Source of the DNA: Rhizobiales bacterium Y(2018)
GTDB taxonomy: Bacteria > Pseudomonadota > Alphaproteobacteria > Rhizobiales > Aestuariivirgaceae
Direction of reading: 5' to 3'
DNA length: 64,000 nucleotides
NCBI GenBank assembly: GCA_005502925.1
Contig: SCPD01000002.1
Location: 496,001 to 560,000 of the forward strand
Shown here: positions 8,679 through 64,000 of the stretch, one piece after another
Layout of the letters: each line of letters opens with the position of its first letter
How positions within the stretch are numbered: the first letter of the stretch is position 1
Translations under genes and position numbers: made by a program
The notes under the pieces: generated by a model
Databases searched by the model: none
Seen by the model: the letters and a program-made list of their open reading frames with translations, nothing else
What the model was told of the DNA's origin: nothing

Positions 8679-9458
8679 TCAGGTGATGGGTTCGCTGCCG
8701 AGATTGGCCAGCTGCGGTCCGAGACGGTCGGCGATGTCGCCCAGCATCGCCACACTTTCGCGGATGGACAGCGTGTCGAGGAACGCATCGCGCAGGCCCA
8801 GAAGACCGAGGCTGAAGACGACGCCGGCATCACCGGAGCGCACCGGCACCGCAACTGCAAGCGTCGCCTCATCGAGCTCGTCGTCGGAGAGCGCAAAACC
8901 TTTGACGCGCGCCTCTTCGATGGCGCGCCGCACATCCGCCGGCTTGGTCTGCGTGCCGGGGCGGTATTTCCGCATCGGCTGAGCGATGGCACGGCTGATG
9001 ACGTCGTCCGGCTGATGCGCGAAGAGCACGCGCCCGACCGCCGAGGCGTTGATCGGGAAATTCTGGCCGGGATGAACCGAGGTGCGCGCCGCGTCGCGCG
9101 GCATGAAGGTGCAGCACAGGTCGACACGTTCATCGCCGAAGCGGGCGAGATAGGCGGTCAGATCGAAGCGGTCGGCCAGCGCCTGCAGTTCCGGCGCGCA
9201 GATGCCGCGCAGCCTTTCGGTGCCGAGGCTCATCTGGAACATGCGCTGCATCCGGGTGCCCAGGCGATAGCGGGCGCGACGTCCTTCCGTCGCCACGAAA
9301 CCGACATCGACGAGATTGCGCAGCAGTCTGAGCGCCGAGGGCATCGGCAGCCCGACACGTTCGGCGACTTCGCTCAGCGACAGACCGTCCGGCGCCGCGG
9401 CGATGATTTCGAGAATGCGTGCCGCTCTTTGCAGAGGCGTGGAGGCCTGGCCTGTCAT
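8679..9458 (-). CDS. IclR family transcriptional regulator
   Basis: A 259-residue regulator. An N-terminal winged helix (about residues 8-65, RAARILEIIAA...LSLSEVAERVGLPMPSALRLLRNL) is followed by the IclR effector-binding domain (about 75-250, with RICAPELQALAD-like and VAVPVRSG segments). The open frame continues to 9605, but the ATG at 9458 gives the normal length before the helix-turn-helix; 9494 is an alternative. It is divergent from the polyamine-type ABC operon and lies next to the ureohydrolase. IclR proteins bind short palindromes, and the 15-bp sites at 5636, 8614 and 9610 are the natural candidates, making it the likely local regulator of the whole module. Confidence 0.92.
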   Translation of the reverse strand: MTGQASTPLQRAARILEIIAAAPDGLSLSEVAERVGLPMPSALRLLRNLVDVGFVATEGRRARYRLGTRMQRMFQMSLGTERLRGICAPELQALADRFDLTAYLARFGDERVDLCCTFMPRDAARTSVHPGQNFPINASAVGRVLFAHQPDDVISRAIAQPMRKYRPGTQTKPADVRRAIEEARVKGFALSDDELDEATLAVAVPVRSGDAGVVFSLGLLGLRDAFLDTLSIRESVAMLGDIADRLGPQLANLGSEPIT

Positions 9459-58992: not shown

Positions 58993-60312
58993 ATGACTCA
59001 AGCATCAAATGGGCCTGTCGCGTCACGTCGTTCGTTTCTGACCAAAGCCGCGGCCGGTGCCGGCTCGCTGGCCATGCTCGCCGGCCTCAATCAGTCGGTG
59101 CGCGCCCAGGATACATCGCCGGTCATCGTCGGCGGACCTCTGCCCTTGACCGGCGCCGTCGCCGCCGACGGCGTCGAATTCAAGCGCGGCCTCGAAATGG
59201 GGGCAGAGGAGATCAATGCGCTGGGCGGCATTCTGGGCCGCCCGATCCAGCTCGCTTTCGAGGATACCGAATCCAAGGGCGATGACGTCATCATCAGCGC
59301 CGGCCAGCGCCTCATCGACAAGCACAATGCCAATGTCCTGATCTCGGGCTACAATCTGGGCTCGCAGACAGCGCTGCAAGGTGTCGCGTCGGGCGCGTCG
59401 CTCATCTATCTCCACGCCGATACGGCGCGGGCCCATACCGATCTCGTCGCCAAGGAGCCGGACAAATACTGGAGCTGCTTCATGTATTGTCCTTCCGAGC
59501 TCTATTACGGCTTCGCTTATCTCGATTTCGTCAAACATCTCGAAACCTCGGGCCAGCTCAAGCTGCCGAACAGGAAGCTGGCGCTGATCACCGGGCCCAT
59601 CACCTATTCGATCAACATCGCCAAATCCATCGAGGCCAAGGCGGCCGAATATGGTTATGAAGTCTCGCTCTATGAGACCGTGCAGGCGCCGACCTCCGAA
59701 TGGGGGCCGACGCTCGCCAAGCTCCGCGAGAATCCACCGGGCCTGATCGTGGTGACACACTTCTTCCCGCAGGATCAGGCGCAGTTCATGATCCAGTTCC
59801 TCACCAACCCGACCGACAGCCTGGTCTATCTGCAATATGGCGCCTCGCTCGCCGCCTTCCGTGACATCGCCGGCGACGCCTCGCAGGGCGTTCTCTATGC
59901 GACCAATATCGGCGTCCTGCAGGACGAGATCGGTCTCGCCTTCACCAAGAACTATATCGCCCGCAACGATCAGAAGGCCTCGCCCAATGGCGGCGGCCAG
60001 ACCTATTCGGCACTGCATCTCTATGCCGTGGCCGCGGCCCTCGCCGGAGGTCCGGGCACTCCTTATGAGGAAAAGCAGAACCGCAAGATCGCCGCGCGTC
60101 TCAAGGCGATGACCTTCCGTTGTCCGATGGGCGTCATCCGCTTCGACCAGGCAACCCAGGCGGCGCTGTCCTATCCGGTGCAGACCAAGGATCCATCGCT
60201 CGGCATGGCGCATATCTTCAGCCAGATCAAAAACAAGGCGGAGAACGGGCATATCATTTCGCCGTCGCCTTATGACATCGCCAAATTCGAGAAGCCGGCC
60301 TGGATGAAGTGA
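58993..60312 (+). CDS. ABC transporter substrate-binding protein, branched-chain amino acid/amide type, Tat signal
   Basis: A 439-residue protein. The N-terminus carries SRRSFLTKAAAGAGSLAML, a twin-arginine signal ending near VRAQ. The mature protein has VIVGGPLPLTGAVAADGVEFKRGLEMGAEEINALGG and the two-lobed periplasmic fold; the length fits amide or urea binding proteins. The ATG at 58993 has GGGAGG 6 nt upstream. It is the first gene of a five-gene importer operon. Confidence 0.92.
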   Translation: MTQASNGPVASRRSFLTKAAAGAGSLAMLAGLNQSVRAQDTSPVIVGGPLPLTGAVAADGVEFKRGLEMGAEEINALGGILGRPIQLAFEDTESKGDDVIISAGQRLIDKHNANVLISGYNLGSQTALQGVASGASLIYLHADTARAHTDLVAKEPDKYWSCFMYCPSELYYGFAYLDFVKHLETSGQLKLPNRKLALITGPITYSINIAKSIEAKAAEYGYEVSLYETVQAPTSEWGPTLAKLRENPPGLIVVTHFFPQDQAQFMIQFLTNPTDSLVYLQYGASLAAFRDIAGDASQGVLYATNIGVLQDEIGLAFTKNYIARNDQKASPNGGGQTYSALHLYAVAAALAGGPGTPYEEKQNRKIAARLKAMTFRCPMGVIRFDQATQAALSYPVQTKDPSLGMAHIFSQIKNKAENGHIISPSPYDIAKFEKPAWMK

Positions 60313-60325
60313 CGGAGCAGGATCC

Positions 60326-61096
60326 GTGCCCGGCGCTCCGCCTCTTCTCGAATGCCGCAACGTGGCCAAGTATTATGGCGCGCTCGCCGCCGTCGATGGT
60401 GTCGATCTCGCGATCAATCGCGGCGAGACGGTCGGCATTGGAGGTCCCAATGGCGCCGGCAAGACGACCTTCTTCGATCTGATCTCAGGATTGACCAAGG
60501 TCAGCTCGGGCGCTGTGCTCTATCAGGGCGAGGACATCACCGGCAGGGCGCCTTACCTTCTGTTCCATGACGGCATGGCGCGAACCTTTCAGGTGACCAG
60601 CGGTTTCGGCGGGCTCACCGTCCTGCAGAACATGCTGGCCGCCGTCATCTATGGCGGCGGCCGCACCAGGCCCGGACTTCTGATCGGACGCCGTGACCGG
60701 GAAAGGGCGATGGCCTCGCTCGAGAGTTTCGGATTGGCCGGTCTTGCCGGGAAGCGGGTGTCCGACATCACGGTGCTGGCGCGCAAGAAGCTGATGGTCG
60801 CCACGGCGGTCGTGCATGACCCGAAGATCCTGCTGCTTGATGAGCCGGTCGGCGGCCTCTTGCCGACGGAGGTCGATGAATTCATCGATCTGATGAGGAA
60901 GCTCCGCGACCGCGGCATCTCCATCGTTTTCATCGAACATGTGATGCGTTTTCTCACCGCCGTCGCCGATCGCGCTCTGATCATGCATCAGGGCAAGCTC
61001 ATTTATGACGGCGTGCCGCGCGGCCTCGCCAAGGATGCGCAAGTGCGCTCGGTCTATCTCGGCTCGGAAGCGGACAGCATGGAGATGCCGGCATGA
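60326..61096 (+). CDS. Branched-chain/amide ABC transporter ATP-binding protein (LivG type)
   Basis: A 256-residue ATPase. Walker A is GPNGAGKTTFFD, the Q-loop ARTFQVTSGFGGLTVLQN, and Walker B ILLLDEPVGGLLPTE, with IEHVMRFL. The signature is degenerate: DITVLARKKLMVATAVVHDPK stands where LSxGxQ is normally found. The start is GTG. This altered signature, with an intact Walker B, is unusual; the partner ATPase has a normal one. Confidence 0.9.
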   Translation: MPGAPPLLECRNVAKYYGALAAVDGVDLAINRGETVGIGGPNGAGKTTFFDLISGLTKVSSGAVLYQGEDITGRAPYLLFHDGMARTFQVTSGFGGLTVLQNMLAAVIYGGGRTRPGLLIGRRDRERAMASLESFGLAGLAGKRVSDITVLARKKLMVATAVVHDPKILLLDEPVGGLLPTEVDEFIDLMRKLRDRGISIVFIEHVMRFLTAVADRALIMHQGKLIYDGVPRGLAKDAQVRSVYLGSEADSMEMPA

Positions 61097-61806
61097 CCGC
61101 GCTGCTCACCGTCAAGGACCTGACGACCGGCTACCGCCATATCCGCGTCCTGCATGAGGTGAGCTTCACCGTGGAGCAGGGCGGCATCACCGCGATCATC
61201 GGGCCGAACGGCCATGGCAAATCGACCTTGTTGCGCGCCCTTTCCGGGTTGCTGCCGGCCTGGTCGGGAGAGATCGCATTCGACGGCGCGGTTGTTGCGC
61301 AAGGTGCTCCGGGCCGCGCGCGCGCCGGGCTGGTGCTCGTCCCGCAAGGCGACCAGCTCTTCGCCGGCATGACGGTCGAGGAGAATCTGATGATGGGCGG
61401 CTATGTGCGCCAGGACATGACGGAGATCCGCGCGACGCTGGCCGAGATATTCGAGCTGTTTCCGCGCCTCAAGGAGCGCCGCGCCCAGCGCGCCAGCAGC
61501 CTGTCGGGCGGCGAGCGCCGCATGGTCGGCATCGGCCGCGGCCTGATGGCCAAGGCCAAGCTGATGATGATCGACGAACCGTCCCTGGGACTGGCGCCGC
61601 TGATCATCGAGCAGATCTATCAGGCGCTGGCCGAGCTTGCGGCGCGCGGCCAGTCGATCCTGGTCGTCGAGGAGAATCCGGGCCGCGTCGCCAAGGTGGC
61701 GACCGCCTTTCATCTGATGGATGGCGGACGCTTCGCCTGGAGCGGCTCCTCGGCCGACCTCAAACAGTCGGGCCACATTCTCAAAACCTATCTCGGCGGA
61801 CACTGA
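61093..61806 (+). CDS. Branched-chain/amide ABC transporter ATP-binding protein (LivF type)
   Basis: A 237-residue ATPase with Walker A GPNGHGKSTLL, signature LSGGERRMVGIGRGLM and Walker B LMMIDEPSLGLAPL. The last glycine-rich residues of the Walker motif include His instead of Ala, which is seen in other members. It overlaps the LivG-like gene by 4 nt (ATGA). Confidence 0.93.
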   Translation: MTALLTVKDLTTGYRHIRVLHEVSFTVEQGGITAIIGPNGHGKSTLLRALSGLLPAWSGEIAFDGAVVAQGAPGRARAGLVLVPQGDQLFAGMTVEENLMMGGYVRQDMTEIRATLAEIFELFPRLKERRAQRASSLSGGERRMVGIGRGLMAKAKLMMIDEPSLGLAPLIIEQIYQALAELAARGQSILVVEENPGRVAKVATAFHLMDGGRFAWSGSSADLKQSGHILKTYLGGH

Positions 61807-61807
61807 C

Positions 61808-62686
61808 ATGCAGGCCGTTCTCCAGATCCTCATCACCGGCCTCACACTGGGCGCGATGTATGCGCTCGCTTCCGTCGGCCTCGCTTTGACCTATGGCACC
61901 ATGCGCATGTTCAACATGGCGCATGGGGTGTTCATGACGGTCGGCGCCTATGCCACTTATATGGCCGGCTCCCTTTGGGGCCTGCCTTTGCCGCTCGCCT
62001 TCCTGTTCGGCCTCGCCGCCGGCGGCCTGATCGGCGCCGTCATGCATCTCCTCGTCGTCCGCTTCATGCTCGACACTGAAGGCTTCGAGGTCAATATCAT
62101 CGTGGCCACGGCCGGCGTCGCCATCCTGCTGCAGGATCTTCTCCTCAAATATTACGGTGCCTATCCGTTTCGCCAGCCGGCGCAGATCGAGGGTGTGTTC
62201 CGCATCGGCGATATTGCGGTCACCTATCAATCGGTCGGCATCCTGGTCTTGGCGGCGACGCTCATCGGCGGCATCGCCTGGCTCCTGACCCATACACGTT
62301 TCGGTCTCGCCATCCGCGCCACCGCCATGAACCGCGAGGCGGCGCTGCTCATGGGCGTCGAGGCGGGTCGCACTTATCTGCAGGTGCTCATCATCGCCGG
62401 CGTGCTCGCCGCCGCTGCCGGCATCCTCATCTCGTCGCTGGCGACGCTCTCGCCTGACATGGGCGCCAATCCGCTGCTGCGCGCTTTCGTGATCTGCGTG
62501 GTGGCGGGCCTCGGCAGCGTGACCGGCGCCGGCATCGCCGCCCTGGCCCTCGGCCTGTGCGAGGCGGCGATCCAATATTATCTCGGCGTCCGCTACGGAT
62601 TTCCCGTCATGCTCCTTCTCGTCATCATCGTCCTGATCTGGAGGCCCGCCGGTCTGTTCGGCCAGCAGGAGGTCGTCCGCTCATGA
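61808..62686 (+). CDS. Branched-chain/amide ABC transporter permease (LivH type)
   Basis: A 292-residue permease with about eight helices. It starts LQILITGLTLGAMYALASVGLALTYGTMRMFNMAHG, the LivH hallmark, and has RATAMNREAALLMGVEAGRTY as the coupling region. The start is ATG at 61808; the frame to 61721 belongs to the previous gene's antisense or shadow. It overlaps the next gene by 4 nt. Confidence 0.94.
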   Translation: MQAVLQILITGLTLGAMYALASVGLALTYGTMRMFNMAHGVFMTVGAYATYMAGSLWGLPLPLAFLFGLAAGGLIGAVMHLLVVRFMLDTEGFEVNIIVATAGVAILLQDLLLKYYGAYPFRQPAQIEGVFRIGDIAVTYQSVGILVLAATLIGGIAWLLTHTRFGLAIRATAMNREAALLMGVEAGRTYLQVLIIAGVLAAAAGILISSLATLSPDMGANPLLRAFVICVVAGLGSVTGAGIAALALGLCEAAIQYYLGVRYGFPVMLLLVIIVLIWRPAGLFGQQEVVRS

Positions 62687-64000
62687 TGCCGATGCCTGAA
62701 ATGAGCCGGCATCTCCTCGGCGCTGTGTTTCTCCTCGCCGCTCTGTCGGCTCTGCCCTTCCTGGTCACCGAGCGTTACGCCCTGGGCGAGTTCATCACCT
62801 TTCTCATCTGGGCTTCGGTGGCGGTGCAGTGGAACGTGCTGACCGGCCATGCCGGCGTCTTCTCGCTGGGACAAATGCTGTTCTTCGCGATCGGCTCTTA
62901 TTGCGTCGCGATGTTCGCGGTCTATTTCGGCCTGCCGCCTTGGGCGTCCATGCCGGTGGCGGGACTTGCCGCAGGCGTCGCGGCCTTGCTCATCGGCCTT
63001 GCCTGTCTCAGGCTTGCCGCCGCCTATGTGGCGCTCCTCACCTTCGCCATCGCCTATATGGTCTACACGCTCATCATCACCGATTCTGCCTGCTACATCA
63101 CGACAGGCGGCACCTGCACACCCTTCTTCGGCGGCACCAACGGTTTCTCCCAGTTCGTCGATCTCGGTTTCCGCAAACTGCTGAAAGGCAATTGGATCGT
63201 TGGCAACTACTTCTCGGTCCTCGCCGTCTTCGCGCTCTCTTTCGTCGCCTCGATCATCGTGATCCATGGCCGGCTCGGACTGGCTTTCCGCGCCACCAGC
63301 GACAGCGCCATCTATGCCGCGGCACGCGGCATCAACCGGACCAAGTTCCAGATCATCGCCTTCGTCGTCACCGCTTTTTTCACCGGTCTGGCGGGTGCTT
63401 CCTATGCGGCGCATTTCCGCTTTGCAGGCCCCAGCCTGTTCGAGCTCTCGACGCTCATGTTCGTCCTCTCTATGGTGATCGTCGGCGGTCTCAAATCGAC
63501 CTGGGGGCCAATCTTCGGCGCCGCCTTGATGATGATCCTGGTCGAGGTCGGCAAAAGCATGGGCGATGTGCGCAACACCTTGATCGGGCTCGTGCTGGTG
63601 ATTTTCGTGCTGCTTCTGCCGAAGGGTTTGGCGGGGGCCTGGGCTGCGCTGCTGGACAGGCTGCGCCGGTCAAAGGCCGTGTCACCGAGGCTCGAGCCCG
63701 CCATCCCCCCGCATCTCCAGGTGCCGCGCACCCGCCCACTCGCCGCGCCGGAAGGTTTCGTGCCGACGACGCCGTCTTATTCCGCCCGCTTCAGCCCAGA
63801 GGTGACGGCGCTGCCGATGGCGTTCTTCGGCGTGCAGTTCAGCGAACCTTCGCCGGAGAGCGCCAGGGCGATCGCACTCCAGCAGCAGGGTTTTGCGAAG
63901 CCCTTCGGTCCTTCCTTCTGGGACCGCGCCGAATATGTCGATGAGCGGGGATACACCAACAGTATTCTCGTCGGCTATTGGGACGACCGGCAGACCTATG
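62683..64000 (+). CDS. LivM-type permease fused in frame to an aldoxime dehydratase-like domain (incomplete at window end)
   Basis: The frame is open without a stop from the ATG at 62683 (ATGA overlap with LivH) to the end of the window, 439 codons. Residues about 1-331 are a full LivM permease: LTGHAGVFSLGQMLFFAIGSY, FRATSDSAIYAAARGINRTKFQ and a final LLLPKGLAGAW. From about residue 335 the sequence changes: LEPAIPPHLQVPRT, MAFFGVQFSEPSPESARA, FGPSFWDRAEYVDERGYTN and SILVGYWDDRQTY. These match in order, from memory, the N-terminal part of haem-containing phenylacetaldoxime/aliphatic aldoxime dehydratases (aldoxime to nitrile). Possible internal starts are GTGs at 63679 and 63721, but no stop codon separates the parts. 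The C-terminus, with the haem histidine, is outside. Confidence 0.85.
   Translation, partial: MMPMPEMSRHLLGAVFLLAALSALPFLVTERYALGEFITFLIWASVAVQWNVLTGHAGVFSLGQMLFFAIGSYCVAMFAVYFGLPPWASMPVAGLAAGVAALLIGLACLRLAAAYVALLTFAIAYMVYTLIITDSACYITTGGTCTPFFGGTNGFSQFVDLGFRKLLKGNWIVGNYFSVLAVFALSFVASIIVIHGRLGLAFRATSDSAIYAAARGINRTKFQIIAFVVTAFFTGLAGASYAAHFRFAGPSLFELSTLMFVLSMVIVGGLKSTWGPIFGAALMMILVEVGKSMGDVRNTLIGLVLVIFVLLLPKGLAGAWAALLDRLRRSKAVSPRLEPAIPPHLQVPRTRPLAAPEGFVPTTPSYSARFSPEVTALPMAFFGVQFSEPSPESARAIALQQQGFAKPFGPSFWDRAEYVDERGYTNSILVGYWDDRQTY

Follow-up and report, generated by a model that had tools for sequence, protein, structure and literature searches.

Gene organization of the locus

The window, i.e., the whole stretch of 64,000 nucleotides that was analysed (G000:C22:496001-560000), ends inside an operon with the gene order SBP-LivG-LivF-LivH-LivM/Oxd-amidase-nitrile hydratase. 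The first gene of the set (58993..60312, + strand) encodes a substrate-binding protein (Peripla_BP_6; PF13458, 1e-27); its ATG was assigned from the reading of the open frame, and the family search used a frame one codon longer. The SRRSFL sequence at its N-terminus is presumably a twin-arginine-like signal motif. The closest solved chain is 3h5l (545 bits over query residues 32-440), which is named merely "putative", a name that carries no ligand. Next come a LivG-like ATPase gene (60326..61096, +; PF00005, 5.5e-23) and a LivF-like ATPase gene (61093..61806, +; PF00005, 9.1e-31), which overlap by 4 bp; the best NCBIfam models are LivG and LivF, respectively, both under their cut-offs. The LivH-like permease gene (61808..62686, +; PF02653, 1.2e-38; best NCBIfam model UrtB, also under its cut-off) shares 4 bp with the gene that is the subject of this report.

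Translation of the reading frame that opens at 62683 on the + strand runs without a stop to 63999 and beyond the end of the window. The gene ends at position 8737 of the overlapping record L005, which is window-equivalent 64737 or 737 bases past the window, and its product has 684 residues. In a Pfam search of the whole product, BPD_transp_2 (PF02653) covers residues 38-308 and Dehydratase_hem (PF13816) residues 380-677. Hence, residues 1-336 (62683..63690, +) comprise a LivM permease half with a short basic tail or linker, while residues 337-684 comprise a haem aldoxime dehydratase half, the start of which occupies 63691..64000 (+) in the window. A reading of the window from its letters alone (the sequence-only reading) had proposed that a complete LivM permease continues in frame into a dehydratase-like domain, and both the completeness of the permease domain and the stop-free junction hold for the full-length gene. 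The joining of LivM and dehydratase is visible in the sequence; from it, we infer expression of the two as one polypeptide.

Past the window, the fusion gene is adjoined by genes for an amidase (L005 8743-10128; PF01425, 278.1 bits against a cut-off of 27) and for nitrile hydratase alpha (L005 10139-10753; TIGR01323, 296.2 against 249.85), beta (L005 10768-11436; TIGR03888, 211.3 against 152.2), and accessory protein (L005 11423-11806; TIGR03889, 60.7 against 46). These are the kinds of genes that the sequence-only reading had listed as worth looking for downstream. The alpha subunit is nearest to solved cobalt-type enzymes. The Liv/HAAT importer set is complete, as the binding protein is accompanied by two ATPases and by two permeases of PF02653, and so is the set of an aldoxime–nitrile cluster, with nitrile hydratase alpha, beta, and accessory genes and an amidase beside the dehydratase. 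As judged by these family matches, the operon is predicted to encode an importer and an aldoxime–nitrile–amide–acid route.

Compared to importers of the LivFGHM/UrtABCDE type (HAAT), the same five-part set is present in one operon. Here, however, the second permease bears a C-terminal haem-enzyme domain and the listed Liv and Urt scores are all under their cut-offs. Likewise, the clusters of Oxd, nitrile hydratase, and amidase described in the available text of PMC8955678 have the same enzymes in one operon, whereas here the importer lies upstream and is covalently joined, at the level of the reading frame, to the first enzyme.

The permease half and its topology

Against the NCBIfam models, the permease half scored 106.4 of 366 bits for LivM and 87.6 of 296.2 bits for UrtC, i.e., under both cut-offs. 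It is therefore best regarded as a member of the Liv/HAAT family, and not as a named amino acid or urea subunit. The tail that continues past the last membrane stretch, PKGLAGAWAALLDRLRRSKAVSPR, is similar to the native C-termini of this genome's unfused paralogs, e.g., PRGLAGWFDRLRALRTRTPS followed by a stop codon (L136). This similarity suggests that little, if any, of the permease is missing.

Hydropathy analysis gave ten hydrophobic stretches in the permease half, of which the one at 272-290 is barely over the threshold of this crude method. Four stretches follow the basic loop at 195-223, which we take to be the loop that contacts the ATPase, and the tail is basic. If the loop does contact the ATPase, the four stretches after it would place the tail, and with it the enzyme, in the cytoplasm. 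The C-terminus of the permease is thus predicted, by this crude method, to be cytoplasmic.

An AlphaFold model of the fusion from a second species of the genus (G001, locus L036) has a mean pLDDT of 67.8 and a pTM of 0.53. In the enzyme half, which is modelled as an alpha/beta fold, pLDDT from residue 361 onwards lies mostly at 75-96 but dips to 54-62 near residues 501-520. The permease half is nearly all helix with, together with the low-confidence linker, a pLDDT of about 32-66, and just four permease rows were available to the model. The model is accordingly to be read as confident for the enzyme half only; given the low permease pLDDT, the four permease rows, and the pTM, neither the topology nor the relative placing of the two halves is fixed by it.

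The dehydratase half

The part of the dehydratase that lies in the window matches PF13816 with 7.3e-5 and 22.7 bits, under the cut-off of 25. With the gene extended past the window, the full fusion scored 260.3 bits and covers profile positions 1-310 of 310. What the sequence-only reading had recognized as resembling the N-terminus of a haem-containing dehydratase is a full domain, beginning LEPAIPPHL, and the C-terminal haem histidine that it proposed to look for past position 64000 is present, as are the catalytic residues, in an alignment to OxdA (3w08). In this alignment, R178, S219, H299, and H320 of OxdA correspond to R174, S217, H295, and H318 of the domain, and to R510, S553, H631, and H654 in the numbering of the fusion (numbers derived by hand). 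The four residues are invariant across a 12-row alignment. According to the available text of PMC5391958, Arg178, Ser219, and His320 are the catalytic residues of OxdA, and His299 is given as the proximal haem ligand in that of PMC4835899. The fusion gene holds the only PF13816 match in the source genome.

The OxdA equivalog model NF050090 scored 304.6 bits, under its 600-bit cut-off, and the enzyme is best described as a member of the family rather than as an OxdA ortholog. With the known members of the family (PF13816; OxdA, 3w08, and OxdRE, 3a15), it shares the full domain and the aligned haem-ligand and catalytic residues. The match begins at residue 1 of OxdA, yet the fusion has Leu at the position of the OxdA start Met, with the permease ahead of it.

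Conservation within the genus

A dehydratase is present in three of five genomes of the genus (G000, the genome of the window, G001, and G004), and the same in-frame fusion was found in all three, which bears out the comparison with related genomes that had been proposed as a check. Among the three species, pairwise identity is 92-98% for LivM and 82-92% for the dehydratase, with NG86 omega values of 0.05-0.08 and 0.10-0.14, respectively; dS for these halves is 0.3-0.9. For the 41-codon stretch that spans the tail, the linker, and the beginning of the enzyme, omega is 0.11-0.25. These values indicate that both halves are under purifying selection. Moreover, the linker in G004 is longer by two whole codons and the frame is kept; retention of the frame through this indel at such dS values shows that the fusion is not a sequencing accident.

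In all three genomes, the fused copy is the sole close LivM, the next best being 46-48% identical. Four long-frame LivM paralogs of the same genus (L134, L136, L139, and L141) were considered as further fusions and rejected; in these, the additional codons precede the permease and look like the neighbouring upstream gene read in a shifted frame.

Unfused relatives and the origin of the fusion

LivM and dehydratase are encoded by separate genes with a 4-bp overlap in three related operons, from Mesorhizobium, a Hyphomicrobiales MAG, and a conjugative plasmid of Aminobacter (overlap sequences GTGA, TTGA, and GTGA). The sequence-only reading would have had to yield to homologues that always carry two genes; the genes are separate in the out-of-genus relatives whose junction was read, and the fusion is kept in the congeners. 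The Mesorhizobium plurifarium (L038) and Hyphomicrobiales MAG (L039) loci consist of LysR, binding protein, LivG, LivF, LivH, and LivM, 65-74% identical to the proteins here, and the dehydratase gene, which comes after LivM, encodes a protein with 57% (L038) and 53% (L039) identity to that of the fusion. No amidase or nitrile hydratase gene was found within 6 kb downstream in either locus.

The third operon, on plasmid pANY103d of Aminobacter sp. SS-2016 (L125, NZ_AP017990.1), a strain from Lotus, has the binding protein, LivG, LivF, LivH, LivM, Oxd, amidase, nitrile hydratase alpha, beta, and accessory genes in the same order as here. The encoded proteins are 52-75% identical to those of the fusion genome (41% for the accessory protein). 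It differs in that LivM and Oxd are two overlapping genes instead of one, and in that LysR and an M20-type hydrolase are at the upstream end, whereas in the fusion genome they lie downstream. A conjugative plasmid with the complete unfused operon, from importer to acid, is a possible route of spread.

Among the best 80 of 433 dehydratase relatives, the closest free enzyme (65% identity) is from Dactylosporangium sucinum (L037), where it comes after the nitrile hydratase genes. The nitrile hydratase subunits of this actinomycete are 78% and 63% identical to those here, the amidase 36%, and the Liv ATPases 34-38%, the Liv genes being different ones. This similarity suggests transfer between phyla. 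In the same 80 relatives, the position of the OxdA start is occupied by ATG in 74, by GTG in two, and by a leucine codon in four, namely the fused L036 and the unfused L037, L038, and L039.

The span from PKG to LEPAIP (LEEAIP in Aminobacter) is shorter in G000 than in L038, L039, and Aminobacter by 101, 101, and 62 bases, respectively, differences which by manual count are all two modulo three. A net deletion would have taken the stop codon, the overlap, and the N-terminal extension of the enzyme. The fused sequences are monophyletic both in the dehydratase tree (97/97, 24 rows) and in the LivM tree (100/99, 11 rows), and a single origin is accordingly the simplest reading. Since the related operons are unfused and overlapping, the fusion is most simply seen as a derived event in one lineage.

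Distribution of the fusion

A PF13816 match over the cut-off was present in 43 distinct genomes, drawn from the genus, family, order, class, and phylum and from one further family, and judged by open-frame length, three of the 43 carry the fusion. Four other long frames, in G1128, G206, G327, and G1253 (780, 556, 551, and 504 codons), were judged to be read-through in GC-rich sequence ahead of a normal ATG and rejected as fusions, a call that for G1253 rests on the last residues before the start. Such frames show that length by itself would not suffice to establish a fusion. In the scan of species genomes that gave the 433 relatives, one of the 80 best that were kept is fused (L036) and the other 79 have no joined permease; fusions may occur in more distant clades among the remaining 353. 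Plasmid records with a dehydratase numbered 34, and in the one in which the junction was read, that of Aminobacter pANY103d, the genes are unfused.

Transporters joined to enzymes are known, e.g., PnuC-NadR, SulP-carbonic anhydrase, and LplT-Aas, and as predicted here, the carrier is joined to an enzyme acting on its cargo. To our knowledge, no such fusion links the permease of an ABC importer with a haem lyase. In the open-licence literature, we found no report of a dehydratase–permease fusion, no paper on Aestuariivirga with nitrile hydratase, and, among the matches listed, no aldoxime transporter; a term search of the main text of reviews of these dehydratases returned none of "transporter," "permease," "fusion," and "fused." The parts and the pathway are known; we could not find the joined form described.

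Cargo of the importer

Neighbourhoods of related importers were compared in six regions, taken from the 13 plasmid records that carry a relative of the binding protein. In Shinella, such importers adjoin amidase genes, and on plasmid p1 of Aminobacter niigataensis DMFA1 (L130), one adjoins a dimethylformamidase gene, in both cases without an annotated dehydratase. In Pseudosulfitobacter the importer is beside hydantoinase-type genes, and in Roseovarius beside none of these. These neighbours would allow another nitrogen compound as the cargo, and this group of importers may be used for small, amide-like compounds of nitrogen.

In two genomes of another family (G1221 and G1205), dehydratases that are 32-35% identical to the one here are found beside other Liv-type genes. 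G1221 (L155, C8:98000-113000) has a binding protein with the ATPase pair and the permease pair, and G1205 (L156, C61:12000-21603) has a binding protein with two permeases. Both have a carbon–nitrogen hydrolase where the nitrile hydratase stands here. As importer and dehydratase are the shared partners, these loci point to an aldoxime as the cargo, and the linkage between importer and dehydratase may have arisen more than once.

A model for the fusion and alternative explanations

Taken together, we favour an inherited fusion that arose by deletion at the junction and that serves an aldoxime importer by tethering a cytoplasmic dehydratase to it, and we assign this explanation a probability of roughly 0.6. 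In this model, an ABC importer of the Liv type and the breakdown of aldoximes would already have been encoded together in an ancestral operon. A net deletion where livM and oxd overlapped would then have removed the stop codon of the permease and the start of the enzyme, giving one polypeptide. The importer would take up an aldoxime or a close precursor, and the dehydratase, held at the cytoplasmic face by the permease C-terminus, would make the nitrile there. The nitrile hydratase and amidase of the operon would convert the nitrile to the amide and then to the acid, with release of ammonia. The deletion event, the expression as one protein, the cytoplasmic side, the aldoxime cargo, and any gain from proximity are the steps that we infer. 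Weighed against this explanation are the candidate internal starts, i.e., an ATG in G001 and GTG codons shared by the three species (see below), the importers next to amidase and dimethylformamidase genes, L038 and L039, where neither amidase nor nitrile hydratase was found within the 6 kb, the OxdA equivalog score, the hydropathy-based topology, and the low pLDDT of the permease. The most likely role of the operon is predicted to be aldoxime uptake with a membrane-tethered first enzyme.

One alternative is that the dehydratase is released, or also made separately, through an internal start or cleavage of the linker, the permease then having a removable tail. In the three species, a strong ribosome site (-12.3 to -14.1, compared to a background mean of -3.7) precedes the start of the fusion gene itself. 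In G001, an ATG 15 codons ahead of the domain scores -6.6, comparable to free dehydratase genes (-6.1 to -7.6), and free relatives with N-terminal extensions of up to 18 residues indicate that extra residues are tolerated. This ATG has no counterpart in G000, which lacks an ATG at both -15 and -17, and the ATG at -17 in G004 scores just -2.6. A GTG at codon -28/-30 is common to the three species and scores -9.0 to -10.6, but it is inside the last membrane stretch, so an enzyme started there would carry a hydrophobic leader, and the bases at this site are also constrained by the permease sequence. Another common GTG, with scores of -3.3 to -6.6, lies 23 codons past the beginning of the domain and would cost the enzyme its N-terminal 23 residues. 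The second start that the sequence-only reading had offered as an alternative, the in-frame GTG at 63679 (-4.4) or 63721 (-0.7), was rejected, as neither site has a start codon in the remaining two species, and the GTG at 63679 exists in G000 only. No start that the three species share is present from the end of the last membrane stretch to the domain, and no shared start was found from which a soluble enzyme of full length would result. Some of the enzyme may be made free, above all in G001, but release or separate synthesis of the dehydratase is on the whole improbable.

The favoured explanation has also to be set against the view that a junction deletion joined two already overlapping genes into a real fusion, translated as a whole, that has no functional consequence, each half working as before without benefit from tethering. 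One event within a single genus would account for the fused state, the unfused operons have the same two genes as overlapping neighbours, and in one of three species pairs, the short linker changes faster than the halves (omega 0.25). However, the frame is kept in three species through the linker indel, and the fused copy is the sole close LivM in each genome; we consider a neutral fusion the less probable, though quite credible, outcome. It is somewhat unlikely that the importer carries a nitrile, an amide, or another nitrogen compound and that the link to the dehydratase is incidental. Amidase and dimethylformamidase neighbours of related importers and the ligand-free name of 3h5l would fit such a cargo, whereas the dehydratase is the constant partner of the distant Liv-type sets in G1221 and G1205. 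A lost stop codon, which the sequence-only reading had also entertained, has a negligible chance of being a sequencing or assembly error, since the fusion is present in three separate genomes of different species with the dehydratase half 82-92% identical, and a sequencing slip was rejected on this ground.

Beyond tethering, the fusion might act as a machine for vectorial metabolism, in which the permease hands its cargo, at the exit, to the attached haem dehydratase and the aldoxime is trapped as nitrile on entry, a proposal we regard as tentative and rather doubtful. The OxdA family is said to oligomerise in the available text of PMC4835899; if the enzyme half does so, importers would also be tied together. 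If the one-protein reading is true, a few bacteria of this genus would have uptake and the first step of breakdown on a single protein. With this operon there is a concrete candidate for an aldoxime importer, and the fusion is a strong genetic link between this importer and the dehydratase. Moreover, the fused operons and their naturally split close relatives provide natural controls for whether tethering aids flux.

Two further features were observed past the window. A very large glycine-rich repeat protein with a terminal autotransporter beta-domain is encoded from L005 17016 to L006 7911. At L006 8081-10780, a protein of 899 residues is encoded that has a lysozyme-like GH108 domain and, close to its end, a C25 peptidase match below the threshold; after this gene comes one for an LCAT-like hydrolase.
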